From the NCBI RefSeq assembly GCF_021497885.1, contig NZ_CP046523.1:1779501-1843500 (forward strand): 64,000 nt of DNA, read 5' to 3'. The DNA comes from Streptococcus oralis. Its GTDB lineage: Bacteria; Bacillota; Bacilli; Lactobacillales; Streptococcaceae. Both the position numbers and the translations under genes were made by a program. Below, one piece after another: positions 58,116 through 64,000 of this stretch. Position 1 is the stretch's first letter; each line of letters begins with the position of its first letter. The notes below the pieces were generated by a model, which did no database searches, was not told where the DNA came from, and saw only the letters and a list, made by a program, of their open reading frames with translations.

Positions 58116-58946
58116 CTATTTATTTTTTCTTAGTAATTTTACAAAAATAAACTGACGTACAAAACCTGGACAAAGTGCCACAATCGCCTGAATGGCAATG
58201 CTTTTCGCATATTCCATGTAGGAAATTTGCCCTCTTTCAAGCATGCGCTGACGAGCTTGGCGATAGAGTCTGAGGTAGCGCAGACCGCCTCGACGTTCAA
58301 ACATCCCTGCACCGACACGAACCTGACACAAGATCTGATCGAGGTTTCCAGTCTTGGCACCTGCGGCAATCATATTGAGCCAGAGGAGATCATCCTCCAT
58401 ATAAAGCCCATCTTCATAGTTGCCTGCCTTGAGAACCATATCCTTCTTGAACATGACTGTCATGTGGTTAAAGGCGCTTCTCATTCTCTGATAAGCCACA
58501 ATGTCTGCGTGCTGAGTTGGAACACGACGGTAAGAAACAATCTCGTCAGGATTGTCAATAAACTCTGCAATATGTCCACCTAAGAGATCGAGATTTTCTT
58601 TCTCCATTAGTTGAAGCTGTTTCTCAAAACGATCCGGAACGGCTAAATCATCCGTATCCATGCGGGCAATAATGTCATACTGGCACTGCAAAACACCGTA
58701 ACGAAGAGCCAAGCCTAAACCTTGGTTTTGCTCTAAGGGGCAACGTTTCACTGGAATCTCTGACTGCGCTTCCACTTCATCTAGCACTTGATAGAGTTCG
58801 GGCGTGAGCGGCCCGTCCTCAACAAGAACAAGCTCACTTGGTTTCAAGGTCTGGTTTTGAATACTCTTGATAGCATCTCTCAAAAATGTCGGATTTTCCT
58901 TTACATAGACCGACATCAAGACGCTGATTTTTTGCTTTTCAGACAC
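58116..58946 (-). CDS. Family 2 glycosyltransferase
   Basis: 276 residues. GT-A fold with the start ISVLMSVYVKENPTFLRDAI, the LVLVEDGPLT sugar-nucleotide region and RMDTDDLAVPDRFEKQ (DxD metal motif). The initiation codon appears to be GTG at 58946, seven bases after GGAG. Probably adds a sugar to a surface glycan together with the downstream CapD-like dehydratase gene. The acceptor is unknown. Confidence 0.92.
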   Translation of the reverse strand: MSEKQKISVLMSVYVKENPTFLRDAIKSIQNQTLKPSELVLVEDGPLTPELYQVLDEVEAQSEIPVKRCPLEQNQGLGLALRYGVLQCQYDIIARMDTDDLAVPDRFEKQLQLMEKENLDLLGGHIAEFIDNPDEIVSYRRVPTQHADIVAYQRMRSAFNHMTVMFKKDMVLKAGNYEDGLYMEDDLLWLNMIAAGAKTGNLDQILCQVRVGAGMFERRGGLRYLRLYRQARQRMLERGQISYMEYAKSIAIQAIVALCPGFVRQFIFVKLLRKNK

Positions 58947-59105
58947 AGTTTTTCTCCAATTTATAGATTTCCTTCCACTATTTTATCACAAAATTTCCTA
59001 GTTTCCTATTTTTATCTCAAATCAAGAAAAATTCTGGTAAAGAAATCTGTCCCCTTTCACTCTATTTTCAGTTAAATCATTCTAGCTTTCTTAGCAGTCC
59101 TCTCC

Positions 59106-59134
59106 TTGACATTGTAAGAAAAAAACCTTAAAAT
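59106..59134 (+). promoter_or_regulatory. Promoter of the MFS gene
   Basis: TTGACA (59106-59111) and TAAAAT (59129-59134) with a 17-base spacer. Confidence 0.85.
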
Positions 59135-59168
59135 AAGCTGTTATTAAAATCATCCTATCGAGGTTTTT

Positions 59169-60335
59169 ATGAAAAAACAATCACTCTTTTTTGTTCTAGG
59201 AATTGTCTTAATCGGGACTGTTTTACGATCTCCTTTTACTGCTCTTCCAACTATTTTAGGTGATATCGCTCAGGGACTGGGAGTGGAGGTTAGCTCTCTT
59301 GGGATTTTAACTAGTCTCCCTCTCTTGATGTTTGCTCTTTTCTCTGCTTTTGCAAGCCGCTTGGCACAAAAAATCGGGTTGGAGCATCTCTTTACTTACT
59401 GTCTCCTCTTCTTAACTATTGGCTCTGTCATTCGGATTTTCAATCTCCCCCTTCTCTATCTAGGAACTCTGATCATCGGAGCGAGCATCGCCATTTTCAA
59501 TGTACTCCTCCCAAGTATGATTCAGGCAAGTCAGCCTCAAAAGATCAGTTTCCTAACAACTCTCTATGTCACTGCCATGGGGGTTTCAACGGCCATCGCT
59601 TCTTATCTTTCGGTCCCTATCACCCAAGCTAGTTCGTGGAAGGGCCTCATCCTCGTTCTCAGCTTTCTCTGTCTGGTCACTCTGCTAGTCTGGTTGCCAA
59701 ATCATCGCCACAACCACCACCTAGAAAGCCAAAAAGAAAAGCAAGTCAAAGAGAATATTCTAAAAAGTAAAGATGTTTGGGCTATCATTATCTTTGGCGG
59801 GCTTCAGTCCTTGCTCTTTTATACAAGTATGACCTGGTTGCCAACTATGGCTATTAGTGCTGGTCTTTCTAATAGCGATGCGGCTCTCCTGGCTTCTATC
59901 TTCTCACTGATCAGCATTCCTTTTTCCATGACTGTTCCAAGTCTGACGACTCGTCTGTCAGATGGTCACCGTCGAATCATGCTGGCAATTATCTCTATCG
60001 CTGGAATGACAGGAATTGCCATGCTCTTGTATCCAAGCAACAATTTCCTCTACTGGTTAGTCGTCCATCTCTTGATTGGAACGGCCTGCAGTGCCCTCTT
60101 CCCCTACCTCATGGTTTGCTTTTCTCTTAAAACCAGTTCTCCTGAAAAGACAGCTCAGCTATCTGGACTAGCGCAAACAGGGGGCTACATTTTGGCAGCC
60201 TTTGGTCCTACCTTGTTTGGTTATAGTTTTGAACTTTTCCAATCTTGGATCCCAGCTGTCCTTGCCCTTCTAGTCATCGATATCATCATGACCGTCTCAC
60301 TCTTTATGGTGGATCGGGCTGATAAAATCCTTTAA
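59169..60335 (+). CDS. MFS transporter, CynX/NimT type
   Basis: A 388-residue, 12-helix transporter. The motif between helices 2 and 3 is SRLAQKIGLEHLF-like, and LAQTGGYILAAFGPTLFGYSF is the family pattern of CynX/NimT anion and drug transporters. Own strong promoter and downstream terminator; a single-gene unit. The substrate (cyanate, nitroimidazole or another small anion) is unknown. Confidence 0.9.
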   Translation: MKKQSLFFVLGIVLIGTVLRSPFTALPTILGDIAQGLGVEVSSLGILTSLPLLMFALFSAFASRLAQKIGLEHLFTYCLLFLTIGSVIRIFNLPLLYLGTLIIGASIAIFNVLLPSMIQASQPQKISFLTTLYVTAMGVSTAIASYLSVPITQASSWKGLILVLSFLCLVTLLVWLPNHRHNHHLESQKEKQVKENILKSKDVWAIIIFGGLQSLLFYTSMTWLPTMAISAGLSNSDAALLASIFSLISIPFSMTVPSLTTRLSDGHRRIMLAIISIAGMTGIAMLLYPSNNFLYWLVVHLLIGTACSALFPYLMVCFSLKTSSPEKTAQLSGLAQTGGYILAAFGPTLFGYSFELFQSWIPAVLALLVIDIIMTVSLFMVDRADKIL

Positions 60336-60369
60336 TTTTTCTAAAATACTTCTCAGATATAAACAATGC

Positions 60370-60396
60370 AAAGCTAGACTCTGTCTGGCTTTTTTG
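60370..60396 (+). terminator. Terminator after the MFS gene
   Basis: AAGCTAGAC-TCT-GTCTGGCTT with one G-T pair, followed by TTTTT. Confidence 0.85.
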
Positions 60397-60450
60397 GTGC
60401 TTATACCAACAAAAAGCACCATCCATCTGTTAGCAGAAAGATGGCATTTT

Positions 60451-60459
60451 TGATATAAT
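60451..60459 (+). promoter_or_regulatory. Extended -10 promoter of the repeat/DUF2971 gene
   Basis: TGATATAAT carries the TGn extension; the start codon is 80 bases downstream. No clear -35. Confidence 0.6.
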
Positions 60460-60538
60460 AAGATGTATAGAAACTAATTGTCATGCGAAAAATAAATTAG
60501 TTTATAAGACAGCTACTATTTTAAATGAGGTGTACAGA

Positions 60539-63484
60539 ATGGATGAACTGAAATACAATTTGGATCAAAGTTTAGCAGAGTTAGATCAGCTCTTTGACTT
60601 ATCAGCAAAGGAGACAGATAAGACTGCCTGCGAAGCTCTAGCAGAAAAAGCAAGAATAATTTATGAGCAATACCCTGAATCAGAAGACATTGCGTTGCGG
60701 TATGCTAGGATTTTGTTCAATTTGTCAGTTGAACAAGTAAATGTAGAAGAGAGAGGGAATACCGCTAATTTAGTCAAACAAATCTTTGAGAAGTTCAACC
60801 AGTCTGAAGATATTGCGTTACAGTATGCTATGGCTTTAGTCAATTTGTCAGCTAAACAAGAAATTGTTGAGGAACTACTAAACACTGCTAATTCAATCAA
60901 ACAAATTTTTGAGCAGTTCAAGGATTCTGAAGACATTGCTTTACGATATGCTATGGTTTTAGTGAATTTGTCAGTTGAACAAGTAAATGTTGAAGAGAGG
61001 AAGAATACCGCTAATTTAGTCAAAAAAATTTTTGAGCAGTTTCAGCAGTCTGAAAACATTGTGTTACGATACGCTATGGCTTTAGTCAATTTATCAGCTA
61101 AACAAATAAATGTTGAAGAGAGAAAGAATACCTCTAATTTAGTCAAAGAAATTTTTGAGCAATTCAAGGATTCTGAAGACATTGCGTTACAACACGCTAT
61201 GGTTTTATACAATCTTTCAAACAGGCAAACTGATAGCAAGGAACGTAAAGAAACCATATCAGAAATAGAAACTTTAACCCTAAAGTTTCAACATTCTGAA
61301 AACATTGCGTTACGATATGCTAGGGCTTTAGTCAATTTGTCAGCTGAACAAGGAAATGTAGAAGAACTAGGCGATACCGTTAATTCAGTCAAAAAAATTT
61401 TTGAGCAGTTTCAGCAGTCTGAAGGCGTTGCGTTACAATATGCTAAAGCTTTAGTCAATTTGTCAGCTAAACAAGGAAATGTAGAAGAGAGAAAGAATAC
61501 CGCTAATTTAGTCAAACAAATCTTTGGGCAGTTCAAGCAATCTGAAGACTTTGCGTTACAATACGCTATGGTTTTAGTGAATTTGTCAATCGAACAAGTA
61601 AATATAGAAGAACTAGGCGATACCGTTAATTCAGTCAAACAAATTTTTGAGCAGTTTAAACAGTCTGAAGACTTTGCGTTACGATATGCTAAGGCCTTAG
61701 TCAATTTGTCAGCTGAACAAGTAAATATAGAAGAACTAGGCGATACCGTTAATTCAGTCAAACAAATTTTTGAGCAGTTTAAACAGTCTGAAGACTTTGC
61801 GTTACAATACGCTATGGTTTTAGTGAATTTGTCAGTTGAACAAGGAAATGTAGAAGAGAGAGGGAATACTGCTAATTCAGTCAAACAAATTTTTGAGCAG
61901 TTTCAGCAGTCTGAAGGCGTTGCGTTACAATATGCTAAAGCTTTAGTCAATTTGTCAGCTAAACAAGGAAATGTAGAAGAGAGAAAGAATACCACTAATT
62001 TAGTCAAACAAATCTTTGAGCAGTTCAAGCAATCTGAAGACATTGCGTTACAATATGCTAAGGTTTTATTTAATCTAGCAAACCTTCAAAATGAAAGAGA
62101 TAAAATAGACAATACAGTTAAACAAACATTAGCTATCTTAACAAATCTCTCTAGCGTTGAAATATTTAAAATTGTAGTGGAAATATTAGAAAACAATCCT
62201 GATACTCCATTAGATACAAATGATACTCCATCCACTAGCATCACAAAGATTTTAGATAAACTATGTTTTTATTCCAATGATGATTTTGACAGAAAACTAC
62301 TCATTCGGGCTTTAAATCTTGACCTTGTTATAAATACAAAATACGATATTTTAAAGGATTGGATAAAACACTATAAAGATGATGAAAATAAGCTCAATCA
62401 GTTAATAGATATCTATAGAATTGTTCAAGAAATCAAGTATCAACTTGGCTTGAAAGCAAAAGATAAAAATTCGAATCTTAAATTTGGTCATTATACCAAA
62501 GGAAAAACTCTCCAAAATTTATTAGATCAAGATACAGGAAAGACAGATGATACAAAGTTTTCCGTATCTGGAAAAACTCGTTTGTATAATGCCAATTATA
62601 TGAACGACCCCGAAGAAGGTGTAGTTATCGAAGAAATATTGGAACCTAGCAAAGATGGGGAAAGAACATCCTACTTCGAAAAGCGAAATATTTTAGATCC
62701 TAGTCCATGGTTTTTAATGAGCTTCACCAGTAAAACAGATGACTTGACTATGTGGTCCCAATACGGCGATGATGCACAGGGTGTTTGTCTGGTACTTAAG
62801 GAAGATGATTTCTCAAGATTTACTTCTTTCAATGATGTTTCATGGCGTCGAGAAACTACATCCCTAGAGTTCATTAATAAGATTGATTTGTCTATGTCGG
62901 AATTAAGCAGTGATTTAAAAATCTCAGCAAACGAAGCCAAGAAAAAAGAGCAAACTTTTTCTGCTAGGATTGAAGAAATACAGCACCAACCTGAAAAAAA
63001 AGATAAGGTAGCTAAAGGGAATATTGATTATCTCTACCGAATAGCCTATGTCAATGATTCAGATGGTGAGTTTAGCATAGAAAAAACGGAACTCTTCAAC
63101 GACGATGAAATCAAAAAATTAGAAGAATTCTTGGAAGCTTTAAAGGAAAAAATAGATAAGAATTTGAACAAAAGAGATGATTTTTATCAAAAAGCGATTT
63201 CTGACTGTATCGAAGAAATTCGTTACTTGTTTAAATCTGTCGATTATAAATATGAGAATGAACTGCGTATCTTACGCTATGCTAACCTAGACCCAAGTAA
63301 TGATAAAATCAAAATTGATAAAACCTCTGGGATAGGCAGACTTTATGTAGAACGTGAAAATTCAATTCAAATCGATGAAGTCATTTTCGGTCCTAAATTT
63401 CCAAATCCTGAGTACGTGACTCCTCTATTAAAACTTTTAGATAAGAAAATTAACTATAAGAAATCTACGATAAAATTTAGATAA
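60539..63484 (+). CDS. Large TPR-like repeat protein with C-terminal DUF2971-like domain
   Basis: 981 residues from the ATG at 60539 (GAGG eight bases upstream); an in-frame GTG three codons earlier is possible. After a short N-terminal segment come twelve 41-residue helix-turn-helix repeats (about residues 33-524), the last eleven very alike (NTANLVKQIFEQFKQSED core). A linker region follows, then from about residue 645 a domain with KFGHYTKGKTL, YMNDPEEG, FLMSFTSKTDDLTMWSQYGD and YENELRILRY, the hallmarks of DUF2971. It is AT-rich, has no signal peptide, stands alone with its own promoter and terminator, and has no homologue at this place in the pneumococcal order I recall. The DUF2971 function is unproven; I suspect a defence or toxin role. 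Confidence 0.85.
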   Translation: MDELKYNLDQSLAELDQLFDLSAKETDKTACEALAEKARIIYEQYPESEDIALRYARILFNLSVEQVNVEERGNTANLVKQIFEKFNQSEDIALQYAMALVNLSAKQEIVEELLNTANSIKQIFEQFKDSEDIALRYAMVLVNLSVEQVNVEERKNTANLVKKIFEQFQQSENIVLRYAMALVNLSAKQINVEERKNTSNLVKEIFEQFKDSEDIALQHAMVLYNLSNRQTDSKERKETISEIETLTLKFQHSENIALRYARALVNLSAEQGNVEELGDTVNSVKKIFEQFQQSEGVALQYAKALVNLSAKQGNVEERKNTANLVKQIFGQFKQSEDFALQYAMVLVNLSIEQVNIEELGDTVNSVKQIFEQFKQSEDFALRYAKALVNLSAEQVNIEELGDTVNSVKQIFEQFKQSEDFALQYAMVLVNLSVEQGNVEERGNTANSVKQIFEQFQQSEGVALQYAKALVNLSAKQGNVEERKNTTNLVKQIFEQFKQSEDIALQYAKVLFNLANLQNERDKIDNTVKQTLAILTNLSSVEIFKIVVEILENNPDTPLDTNDTPSTSITKILDKLCFYSNDDFDRKLLIRALNLDLVINTKYDILKDWIKHYKDDENKLNQLIDIYRIVQEIKYQLGLKAKDKNSNLKFGHYTKGKTLQNLLDQDTGKTDDTKFSVSGKTRLYNANYMNDPEEGVVIEEILEPSKDGERTSYFEKRNILDPSPWFLMSFTSKTDDLTMWSQYGDDAQGVCLVLKEDDFSRFTSFNDVSWRRETTSLEFINKIDLSMSELSSDLKISANEAKKKEQTFSARIEEIQHQPEKKDKVAKGNIDYLYRIAYVNDSDGEFSIEKTELFNDDEIKKLEEFLEALKEKIDKNLNKRDDFYQKAISDCIEEIRYLFKSVDYKYENELRILRYANLDPSNDKIKIDKTSGIGRLYVERENSIQIDEVIFGPKFPNPEYVTPLLKLLDKKINYKKSTIKFR
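60758..62110 (+). repeat. Eleven tandem 123-bp coding repeats
   Basis: Each 123-bp unit encodes 41 residues (start AAYACYGCTAATT or similar, then GAGCAGTTYAAGCAGTCTGAA and TATGCTAARGCTTTAGTCAATTTGTCAGC). Neighbouring units, such as those beginning near 61617 and 61740, are almost identical at DNA level, showing recent duplication or gene conversion. A divergent first unit precedes them from about 60635. Confidence 0.9.
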
Positions 63485-63502
63485 AGGCTAACAACATTCT
63501 CT

Positions 63503-63532
63503 AAACTTCTAGTTTTTACTAGGAGTTTTTTA
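63503..63532 (+). terminator. Terminator after the repeat/DUF2971 gene
   Basis: AAACTTCTAGT-TTTT-ACTAGGAGTTT with one wobble pair, followed by TTT. Confidence 0.85.
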
Positions 63533-63617
63533 TATATAAAATTTTTACACATATTTCTTGACAGGGCTTTCAACTTGAGATACAATATATTTGAAAAGAG
63601 TATATATAAAATTTTTA
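63531..63617. promoter_or_regulatory. padR promoter flanked by two identical operator-like repeats
   Basis: TATATATAAAATTTTTA occurs at 63531-63547 and again at 63601-63617, exactly 70 bases apart. Between them lie TTGACA (63558-63563) and TACAAT (63581-63586) with a 17-base spacer. The repeats contain an AT dyad typical of PadR operators. Confidence 0.75.
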
Positions 63618-63639
63618 TATAATATAAAGGAGGTTTCCC

Positions 63640-63966
63640 ATGTACTTCCCAACATCCTCTGCCTTGATTGAGTTTCTCATCTTGGCTGTACTGGAGCGGG
63701 GAGATTCTTATGGTTATGAGATTAGCCAAACCATTAAGCTCATTGCCAATATCAAAGAATCTACGCTCTATCCCATTCTCAAAAAATTGGAAGCCAGTGG
63801 CTTTCTGACCACCTACTCTAGAGAGTTTCAGGGGCGTATGCGCAAATACTACTCCTTGACCAATCGGGGCGTAGAGCAGCTCGTTACTCTAAAGGAAGAG
63901 TGGACGCTCTATACCGACACCGTCAACGGCATCATAGAAGGGAGTATCCGCCATGACAAGAACTGA
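63640..63966 (+). CDS. PadR family transcriptional regulator
   Basis: 108 residues, a winged-helix repressor of the small PadR-s2 type. The core is LIEFLILAVLERGDSYGYEISQ and STLYPILKKLEASGFLTTY, with the PadR Y-x-Y/TxxG positions (RKYYSLTNRGVEQL). AAGGAGGT precedes the ATG. It overlaps the next gene by 14 bp, so regulator and DUF1700 membrane protein form one operon, a frequent layout for envelope-stress or antimicrobial sensing. Confidence 0.93.
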   Translation: MYFPTSSALIEFLILAVLERGDSYGYEISQTIKLIANIKESTLYPILKKLEASGFLTTYSREFQGRMRKYYSLTNRGVEQLVTLKEEWTLYTDTVNGIIEGSIRHDKN

Positions 63967-64000
63967 CTATCTGACTCAGTTAGAAACCTATCTCCATAAA
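63953..64000 (+). CDS. Start of a DUF1700-type membrane protein gene (partial)
   Basis: The ATG at 63953 opens a frame MTRTDYLTQLETYLHK that runs off the window end. This N-terminus and the place after a small padR fit DUF1700 proteins, which start with a short soluble helical segment before membrane helices. Only 16 codons are visible. Confidence 0.65.
   Translation, partial: MTRTDYLTQLETYLHK

Follow-up and report, generated by a model that had tools for sequence, protein, structure and literature searches.

A repeat-array gene with a DUF2971 domain at a swapping site of oral streptococci: a candidate single-protein defence system

The stretch of Streptococcus oralis DNA analysed here (64,000 nucleotides of contig NZ_CP046523.1, positions 1,779,501 to 1,843,500; hereafter the window, whose numbering we use) carries a gene that joins an array of 41-residue repeats to a C-terminal DUF2971 domain. 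The gene is a single open reading frame (ORF) on the plus strand, 60539-63484, encoding 981 amino acids from an ATG, with an alternative GTG start at 60530. Its protein can be divided into an N-terminal cap recognized from the sequence and the unit profile (residues 1-47, 60539-60679), twelve units of exactly 41 residues that form the proposed sensor (residues 48-539, 60680-62155), a helical linker seen in an AlphaFold model (residues 540-639, 62156-62455) and the C-terminal domain (residues 640-981, 62456-63481), a proposed effector placed by profiles and given by modelling a predicted ADP-ribosyltransferase (ART)-like fold. All four parts are read from the plus strand, and each unit probably folds as two helices. 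The units were delimited by their profile, their variation and the program TRF, which reports a 123-bp array of 11.3 copies at 60683-62068. A preliminary description of this DNA, made from the sequence alone, had spoken of a stand-alone protein with twelve 41-residue repeats and AT-rich coding, and all of this stands: the G+C content of the gene is 33.4%, against 42.0% in the window. Its picture of eleven near-identical repeats after a divergent first one does not. Pairwise identity between units averages 0.62 for amino acids (0.32-0.95) and 0.74 for nucleotides (0.50-0.98), and the outliers are the fifth and twelfth units.

The gene lies between what we take to be an MFS transporter gene and a padR gene; these names, like those of other neighbouring genes (TatD, RnmV, KsgA, UvrB, Der), are presumed from the sequences. 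Junctions with the empty sites of other genomes define an insert, without assigned strand, at 60336-63501: the MFS stop codon TAA (60333-60335) gives way to the cargo, and the sequence returns to TAAACTTCTAG at 63502, give or take a few bases. In empty sites the TAA leads directly into ACTTCTAG or a close variant of it; in filled sites the cargo comes between the TAA and TAAACTTCTAG or one of its close variants. A search of the genus matched the protein in 48 of 284 genomes (E <= 0.001). Thirty of the 48, the source genome included, hold a counterpart with a C-terminal match of E 1e-44 or better, and the remaining 18 match the C-terminal part only, in open frames of 552-678 residues (17 genomes) or 1343 residues (one). 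With 76 genomes that lack the gene as a comparison set (MFS match at least 72% identical, among the matches listed), the census of the site comprised 106 genomes, 16 of which were set aside as having a flank missing on the contig or the gene elsewhere.

Among the 90 resolved genomes, 53 have an empty MFS-padR site with a gap that is always 138-142 bp. The array-DUF2971 gene occupies the site in 17, two of which also hold a pair of genes of 498 and 141 amino acids, and at 15 of the 17 it, or its fragments, is all that lies between MFS and padR. The 498/141-aa pair without the array gene is found at 13 sites, three of them also with a 266-aa gene; that gene alone, and other genes, account for one site each. 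Five genomes (L166, L171, L173, L177 and L188) carry an RT-Toprim retron gene instead. The proteins of L166 and L171 match the PADLOC family RT-Toprim_I-C (E 4.9e-209 and 3.2e-210), and the three others are 77-93% identical to the first scanned one over 498-722 residues, that of L173 being split over two ORFs. The left end of the cargo, with a terminator-like hairpin and T run (60372-60395, plus strand) noted by eye and not called by the terminator scanner, is alike in the array-DUF2971 gene's cargo and the retron's; in other genomes a similar hairpin and T run marks the left ends of the retron cargo and the 498/141 cargo. In L038, L043, L044, L046 and L056 the array gene is placed between the RnmV-like and KsgA-like genes. 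The array-DUF2971 gene is thus accessory, at a swap site in common with a retron gene, and the insertion between otherwise adjoining MFS and padR genes suggested earlier can be read at the junctions. Neither near-universal presence, nor a fixed repeat number, nor a housekeeping domain, the findings named in advance as contrary to an accessory gene, appeared in the comparison, which covers species-level genomes.

Several other occupants of the site are worth recording in their own right. The 498/141-aa pair (L179:585-2548, with similar pairs in 15 further loci swapping into the site) matched no Pfam family above cut-off and nothing in PADLOC, and is possibly an undescribed defence pair. The 266-aa gene (L199:298-1098, also in L206, L236 and L241) likewise matched no family above cut-off. 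A 4.6-kb insert in L243 (1669-5459) holds two genes whose products begin in the manner of secreted or surface proteins. Should the defence reading hold, further defence genes may be sought at the MFS-padR site in oral streptococci, the 498/141-aa pair among them.

The array itself changes in two ways, in length and in sequence. Intact counterparts have 6-23 units, counted at a score above 5 bits with a profile built from the window's own units, so that very divergent units may be missed; the change in repeat number that had been anticipated is seen between species-level genomes. Units are spaced 41 residues apart, with a last step of 43 in L042, L045, L047, L050 and L055, one step of 39 in L054, a mixture of 41 and 45 in L056 and a spacing of 40 in L059. 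Against L032, another species-level genome, the last 1.1 kb of the gene are identical, whereas the 123-bp blocks of the array show 10-58 differences; the padR protein is identical as well, so that one recombination tract may explain this pattern.

Replacements within the units are concentrated. Across the 16 arrays used, the nonsynonymous proportion (pN) at unit position 7 is 0.493, against a mean synonymous proportion (pS) of 0.287, a ratio of 1.72 (bootstrap 1.45-2.07). By the same measure positions 25, 17 and 10 reach 1.26, 1.17 and 1.13, each with an interval that spans 1. When each position is set against its own pS, position 7 remains above 1 (1.21, 1.02-1.45), position 17 rises to 2.05 (1.20-4.96), and positions 25 and 10 fall to 0.83 and 0.82. 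These intervals are narrower than they should be because the arrays share ancestry. Framework positions stay fixed, and variation is one-sided on the first helix (p 0.0028) and not on the second (p 0.35), with helix limits set by hand. The calculation left out arrays of fewer than six units, L032, L054, L056 and L059, first and last units, and unit pairs with identity below 55%. Of the arrays retained, two (L055 and L058) come from genes that are broken or gapped. This variation fits the role in recognition that had been proposed for the array, a role that is predicted from sequence.

The same data bear on the most modest explanation, in which this is an ordinary repeat protein that serves the cell's own needs, for instance in regulation or as a scaffold, and whose array drifts neutrally by slippage. 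Selection is not required for repeat arrays to change in length, some copies of the gene are broken (e.g. L057 and L058), and the replacement excess is weak when judged by own-site rates. On the other hand, position 7 exceeds 1 by both measures while the framework is held constant, and the gene occupies 17 of 90 resolved sites and swaps there with a retron gene. We regard neutral drift of this kind as very improbable.

Which repeat family the units resemble is a separate matter. Pfam and NCBIfam also match the array to a number of families, OSCP/ATP synthase delta, Rad4 and NBD94 among them and several over cut-off; these matches were rejected as spurious because the matched stretches sit inside the repeats and the families are mutually unrelated. 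A comparison of the 41-mer with tetratricopeptide repeat (TPR) units by hhalign gave a probability of 0.2%, against 0.1% for a column-shuffled control, and since this pairing is at control level the unit positions were not mapped onto TPR positions. The units would be expected to stack as a solenoid.

The C-terminal domain belongs to DUF2971 (PF11185), as first suggested, at a borderline score that depends on the program: hmmscan of the full protein gives 21.9 bits (E 4.7e-4, residues 738-911) and a six-frame genome search 27.2 bits, for a cut-off of 22.0. It also matches the PADLOC candidate family PDC-S31 (E 2.4e-10) and PHROG 1762, of unknown function (8.1e-15). Three motifs, all on the plus strand, stand out. 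HYT (residues 651-653, 62489-62497) lies on the first strand of the domain according to relatives and the AlphaFold model, and its H is Y or Q in some relatives. In NDPEEG (residues 689-694, 62603-62620) the N, D, P, second E and G are invariant in an alignment of 73 sequences. In E-x-E-x-R (residues 906-910, 63254-63268) both glutamates, E906 and E908, and the arginine are invariant in alignments of 73 and 52 sequences. Members of the ART superfamily have a conserved catalytic glutamate on a late strand, and E906 and E908 are our candidates for such a role here.

The structural check proposed for residues 640-981 has been made with AlphaFold. Two models from different phyla have a predicted ART-like fold with DarT and Tpt1 as top families, and in the high-confidence model, that of a relative, ARTs (DarT, Tpt1, pierisin and toxin chains) fill 13 of the 15 first rows; in the AlphaFold model of the protein studied here, model residues 230-287 (protein residues 770-827) are of low confidence. 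A sequence-profile search of the PDB returned one designed protein only (E 1.4), and Foldseek against viral models gave nothing below E 1. An ART-like fold is thus supported by the models, short of proof. That the likeness to DarT and Tpt1 arose by chance, and that the domain is some other enzyme or a binding domain (a defence role could still stand), seems improbable to us given the agreement of models from two phyla on the same top families and the share of ARTs in the better one.

A further question is what such a domain would do to the cell. It may be non-lethal, binding NAD+ or ADP-ribose or modifying a single phage or plasmid target, so that defence would proceed without abortive infection. 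DarT acts on viral DNA (PMC9503650), and the variable H of HYT in some relatives means that catalysis may differ. The invariance of E-x-E-x-R in both alignments is, in turn, what an active site would be expected to show. We consider a non-lethal domain unlikely, but the most credible of the alternatives.

Relatives in other genomes help to place the architecture. A species-genome scan, with search patterns that favour the solenoid-fused subset, gave 148 pattern matches, 93 relatives and 79 loci that were kept. Strong internal periods occur in 16 of the 36 non-streptococcal loci with enough N-terminal sequence, mostly of 34 residues, with 36 in L135 and L143 and 40 in L096. TPR or Sel1 families were matched in nine of ten scanned relatives (not in L120) and DUF2971 in seven of the ten, among the matches listed. 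The solenoid-DUF2971 architecture therefore recurs in several phyla. The streptococcal paralogues show no internal period. DUF2971 itself was found in 26 of 398 genomes of the phylum; short open frames of 279-354 residues make up 26 of its 34 match rows, so the solenoid fusion is a minority form. The source genome has two further DUF2971 proteins: one of 612 residues beside a UvrB-like gene (G000:C1:1092423-1093067; L073:9100-10938), and a stand-alone one of 350 residues downstream of a Der/EngA-like GTPase gene (G000:C1:555258-555503; L266:877-1929). Of 47 stretches matched on viral contigs, five proved to be relatives. One of these contigs, catalogued as viral (L153), encodes a 984-residue protein with a 34-residue period and the same domain, equal in length to that of L097.

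The company these relatives keep includes defence genes. Four Nitrospira loci from two assemblies (L098, L099, L100 and L101) adjoin type III restriction genes, where the restriction subunit lies downstream in each of the four and a methylase upstream in the three scanned. A Spirochaetes relative has hsdS as its immediate neighbour and hsdM two genes away. Restriction genes of type III or type I thus adjoin five relatives in all, and the streptococcal site is shared with a retron gene. A wider neighbour scan took 147 proteins within two genes of 40 non-streptococcal relatives, of which 143 were scanned and four longer than 1100 residues dropped; 289 PADLOC families were matched at 1e-10. A far set of 143 proteins (four or more genes away, under 1100 residues, drawn at random from 232 and totalling 40201 residues, fewer than the near set) matched 157 families and also holds defence genes: restriction, Septu, PARIS-type and Cas13a. 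We claim no enrichment, because the counts are of families and the far set comes from the same regions and contains defence genes itself.

These surroundings also weigh on whether the gene is toxin-like and owes its retention not to phage defence but to rivalry with plasmids or kindred strains, through addiction or inter-strain antagonism. Many toxins contain ART domains, and the fold matches include several such chains; the gene also swaps with other cargo at one site. Against this, it has no constant partner, 15 of the 17 occupied, resolved sites holding the array gene or its fragments alone; the other occupants of the site include a retron gene, and some relatives adjoin restriction genes. 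We judge a toxin-like role to be improbable, marginally more so than a domain of another fold.

The signals around the gene are partly its own. A promoter-like site, TTAGCA-18-TATAAT with a TG before the -10 (60430-60459, plus strand, -10 box ending at 60459), was called by a scanner that yields 25 such sites against 12.6 in shuffles, so that only conservation argues for it: all 15 counterparts compared retain its -10 region. Between this site and the gene lies an inverted repeat, AAACTAATT...AATTAGTTT (60471-60503, plus strand), similar in the 15 counterparts. It could be a regulatory hairpin; an Rfam search of 58900-64000 gave one chance match and nothing at the inverted repeat. The terminator called at 63503-63528 (plus strand) follows the MFS stop directly at empty sites and is thus a property of the site. 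Of the promoter and terminator first credited to the gene, the former gains from this conservation and the latter passes to the MFS-padR site.

Taken together, we lean, by a slender margin over even, towards a single-gene defence protein in which a diversifying solenoid sensor is coupled to an NAD-using effector of ART fold. The N-terminal units would build a helical solenoid that tracks a partner as it changes, in all likelihood a protein that the infecting phage produces; the array could follow such a partner because its unit number and a few first-helix positions change quickly. Binding would release or assemble the DUF2971 domain, whose predicted fold is closest to DarT and Tpt1. With NAD+ as donor, the domain would attach ADP-ribose to nucleic acid or to some other component of the cell or, alternatively, deplete NAD+. 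The arrested cell would then stop producing phage. The protein is assumed to be self-inhibited until triggered, because in the window it has no companion gene. A broader proposal, to which we give some credence but considerably less than an even chance, is that of an NTPase-free, one-protein immune receptor family across phyla, in which a diversifying solenoid (41-mer, TPR or Sel1, recruited repeatedly) controls an ART of an unrecognized kind, DUF2971, with specificity held in unit sequence and number. If these proposals are true, DUF2971, a domain family of unknown function, would gain a fold and a candidate active site and be linked to ADP-ribosylation in phage defence, and the array would offer a simple bacterial model of how repeats acquire new specificities.

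How does this protein compare with described systems? By profile its C-terminal domain belongs to DUF2971/PDC-S31, the latter a candidate family without description in the PADLOC library; the window protein adds a twelve-unit array to what is mostly a frame of 279-354 residues (26 of 34). PADLOC candidate genes have been reported in S. thermophilus, and PDC-S31 is not among them in the accessible text of PMC11514479. In the open literature DUF2971 was met only for a Halomonas genome, most subscription papers and bioRxiv preprints being outside the search.

The likeness to DarT (PF14487) is one of predicted fold. Against six DarT-family proteins (six of six loci used) hhalign gave a probability of 0.3%, its sole aligned stretch, which is not significant, pairing the DUF2971 motif HYT with H-x-T in DarT, and DarT was not among the Pfam matches to E 10. 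The protein studied here thus differs in lacking significant profile similarity to DarT and in carrying a fused repeat array. The antitoxin of DarTG is the DarG macrodomain; here an adjacent antitoxin gene is absent, with the array-DUF2971 gene or its fragments alone in the window and at 15 of 17 sites. DarTG is described as acting on viral DNA (PMC9503650). Tpt1/KptA (PF01885) differs likewise, with no profile similarity (hhalign probability 0.15% against six proteins, from six of seven loci, one cut by a contig end being dropped; not among the Pfam matches) and no solenoid.

A parallel to the sensor is offered by the repeats (WD, ANK and TPR) of fungal NLRs, whose conserved units vary in number and are positively selected on their concave face (PMC4986451). 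The window array resembles NLR-type receptors, as far as that source describes them, in its tandem units, variable number (6-23) and replacements at few helix positions (position 7: 1.72 and 1.21 by the two measures), the marks of a diversifying array; its units, at 62% amino acid identity, lie below the 85% threshold given there. NLR and STAND proteins differ in that Pfam finds no NTPase family here outside the array. NBD94 (over cut-off) and two weak helicase/AAA-lid matches fall inside the array and are taken as spurious, like OSCP.

Retron-Eco2 is an RT-Toprim antiphage retron, according to PMC12405507. The RT-Toprim retron of oral streptococci uses the same chromosomal site (5 of 90 genomes) as a gene to which it is unrelated in protein and mechanism. 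The window protein thus shares features with DarTG, fungal NLRs and retrons, with membership established in none of them. Repeat-based sensing and NAD-related defence are each of a known kind; there is a real chance that their proposed union in this protein represents a distinct receptor class.
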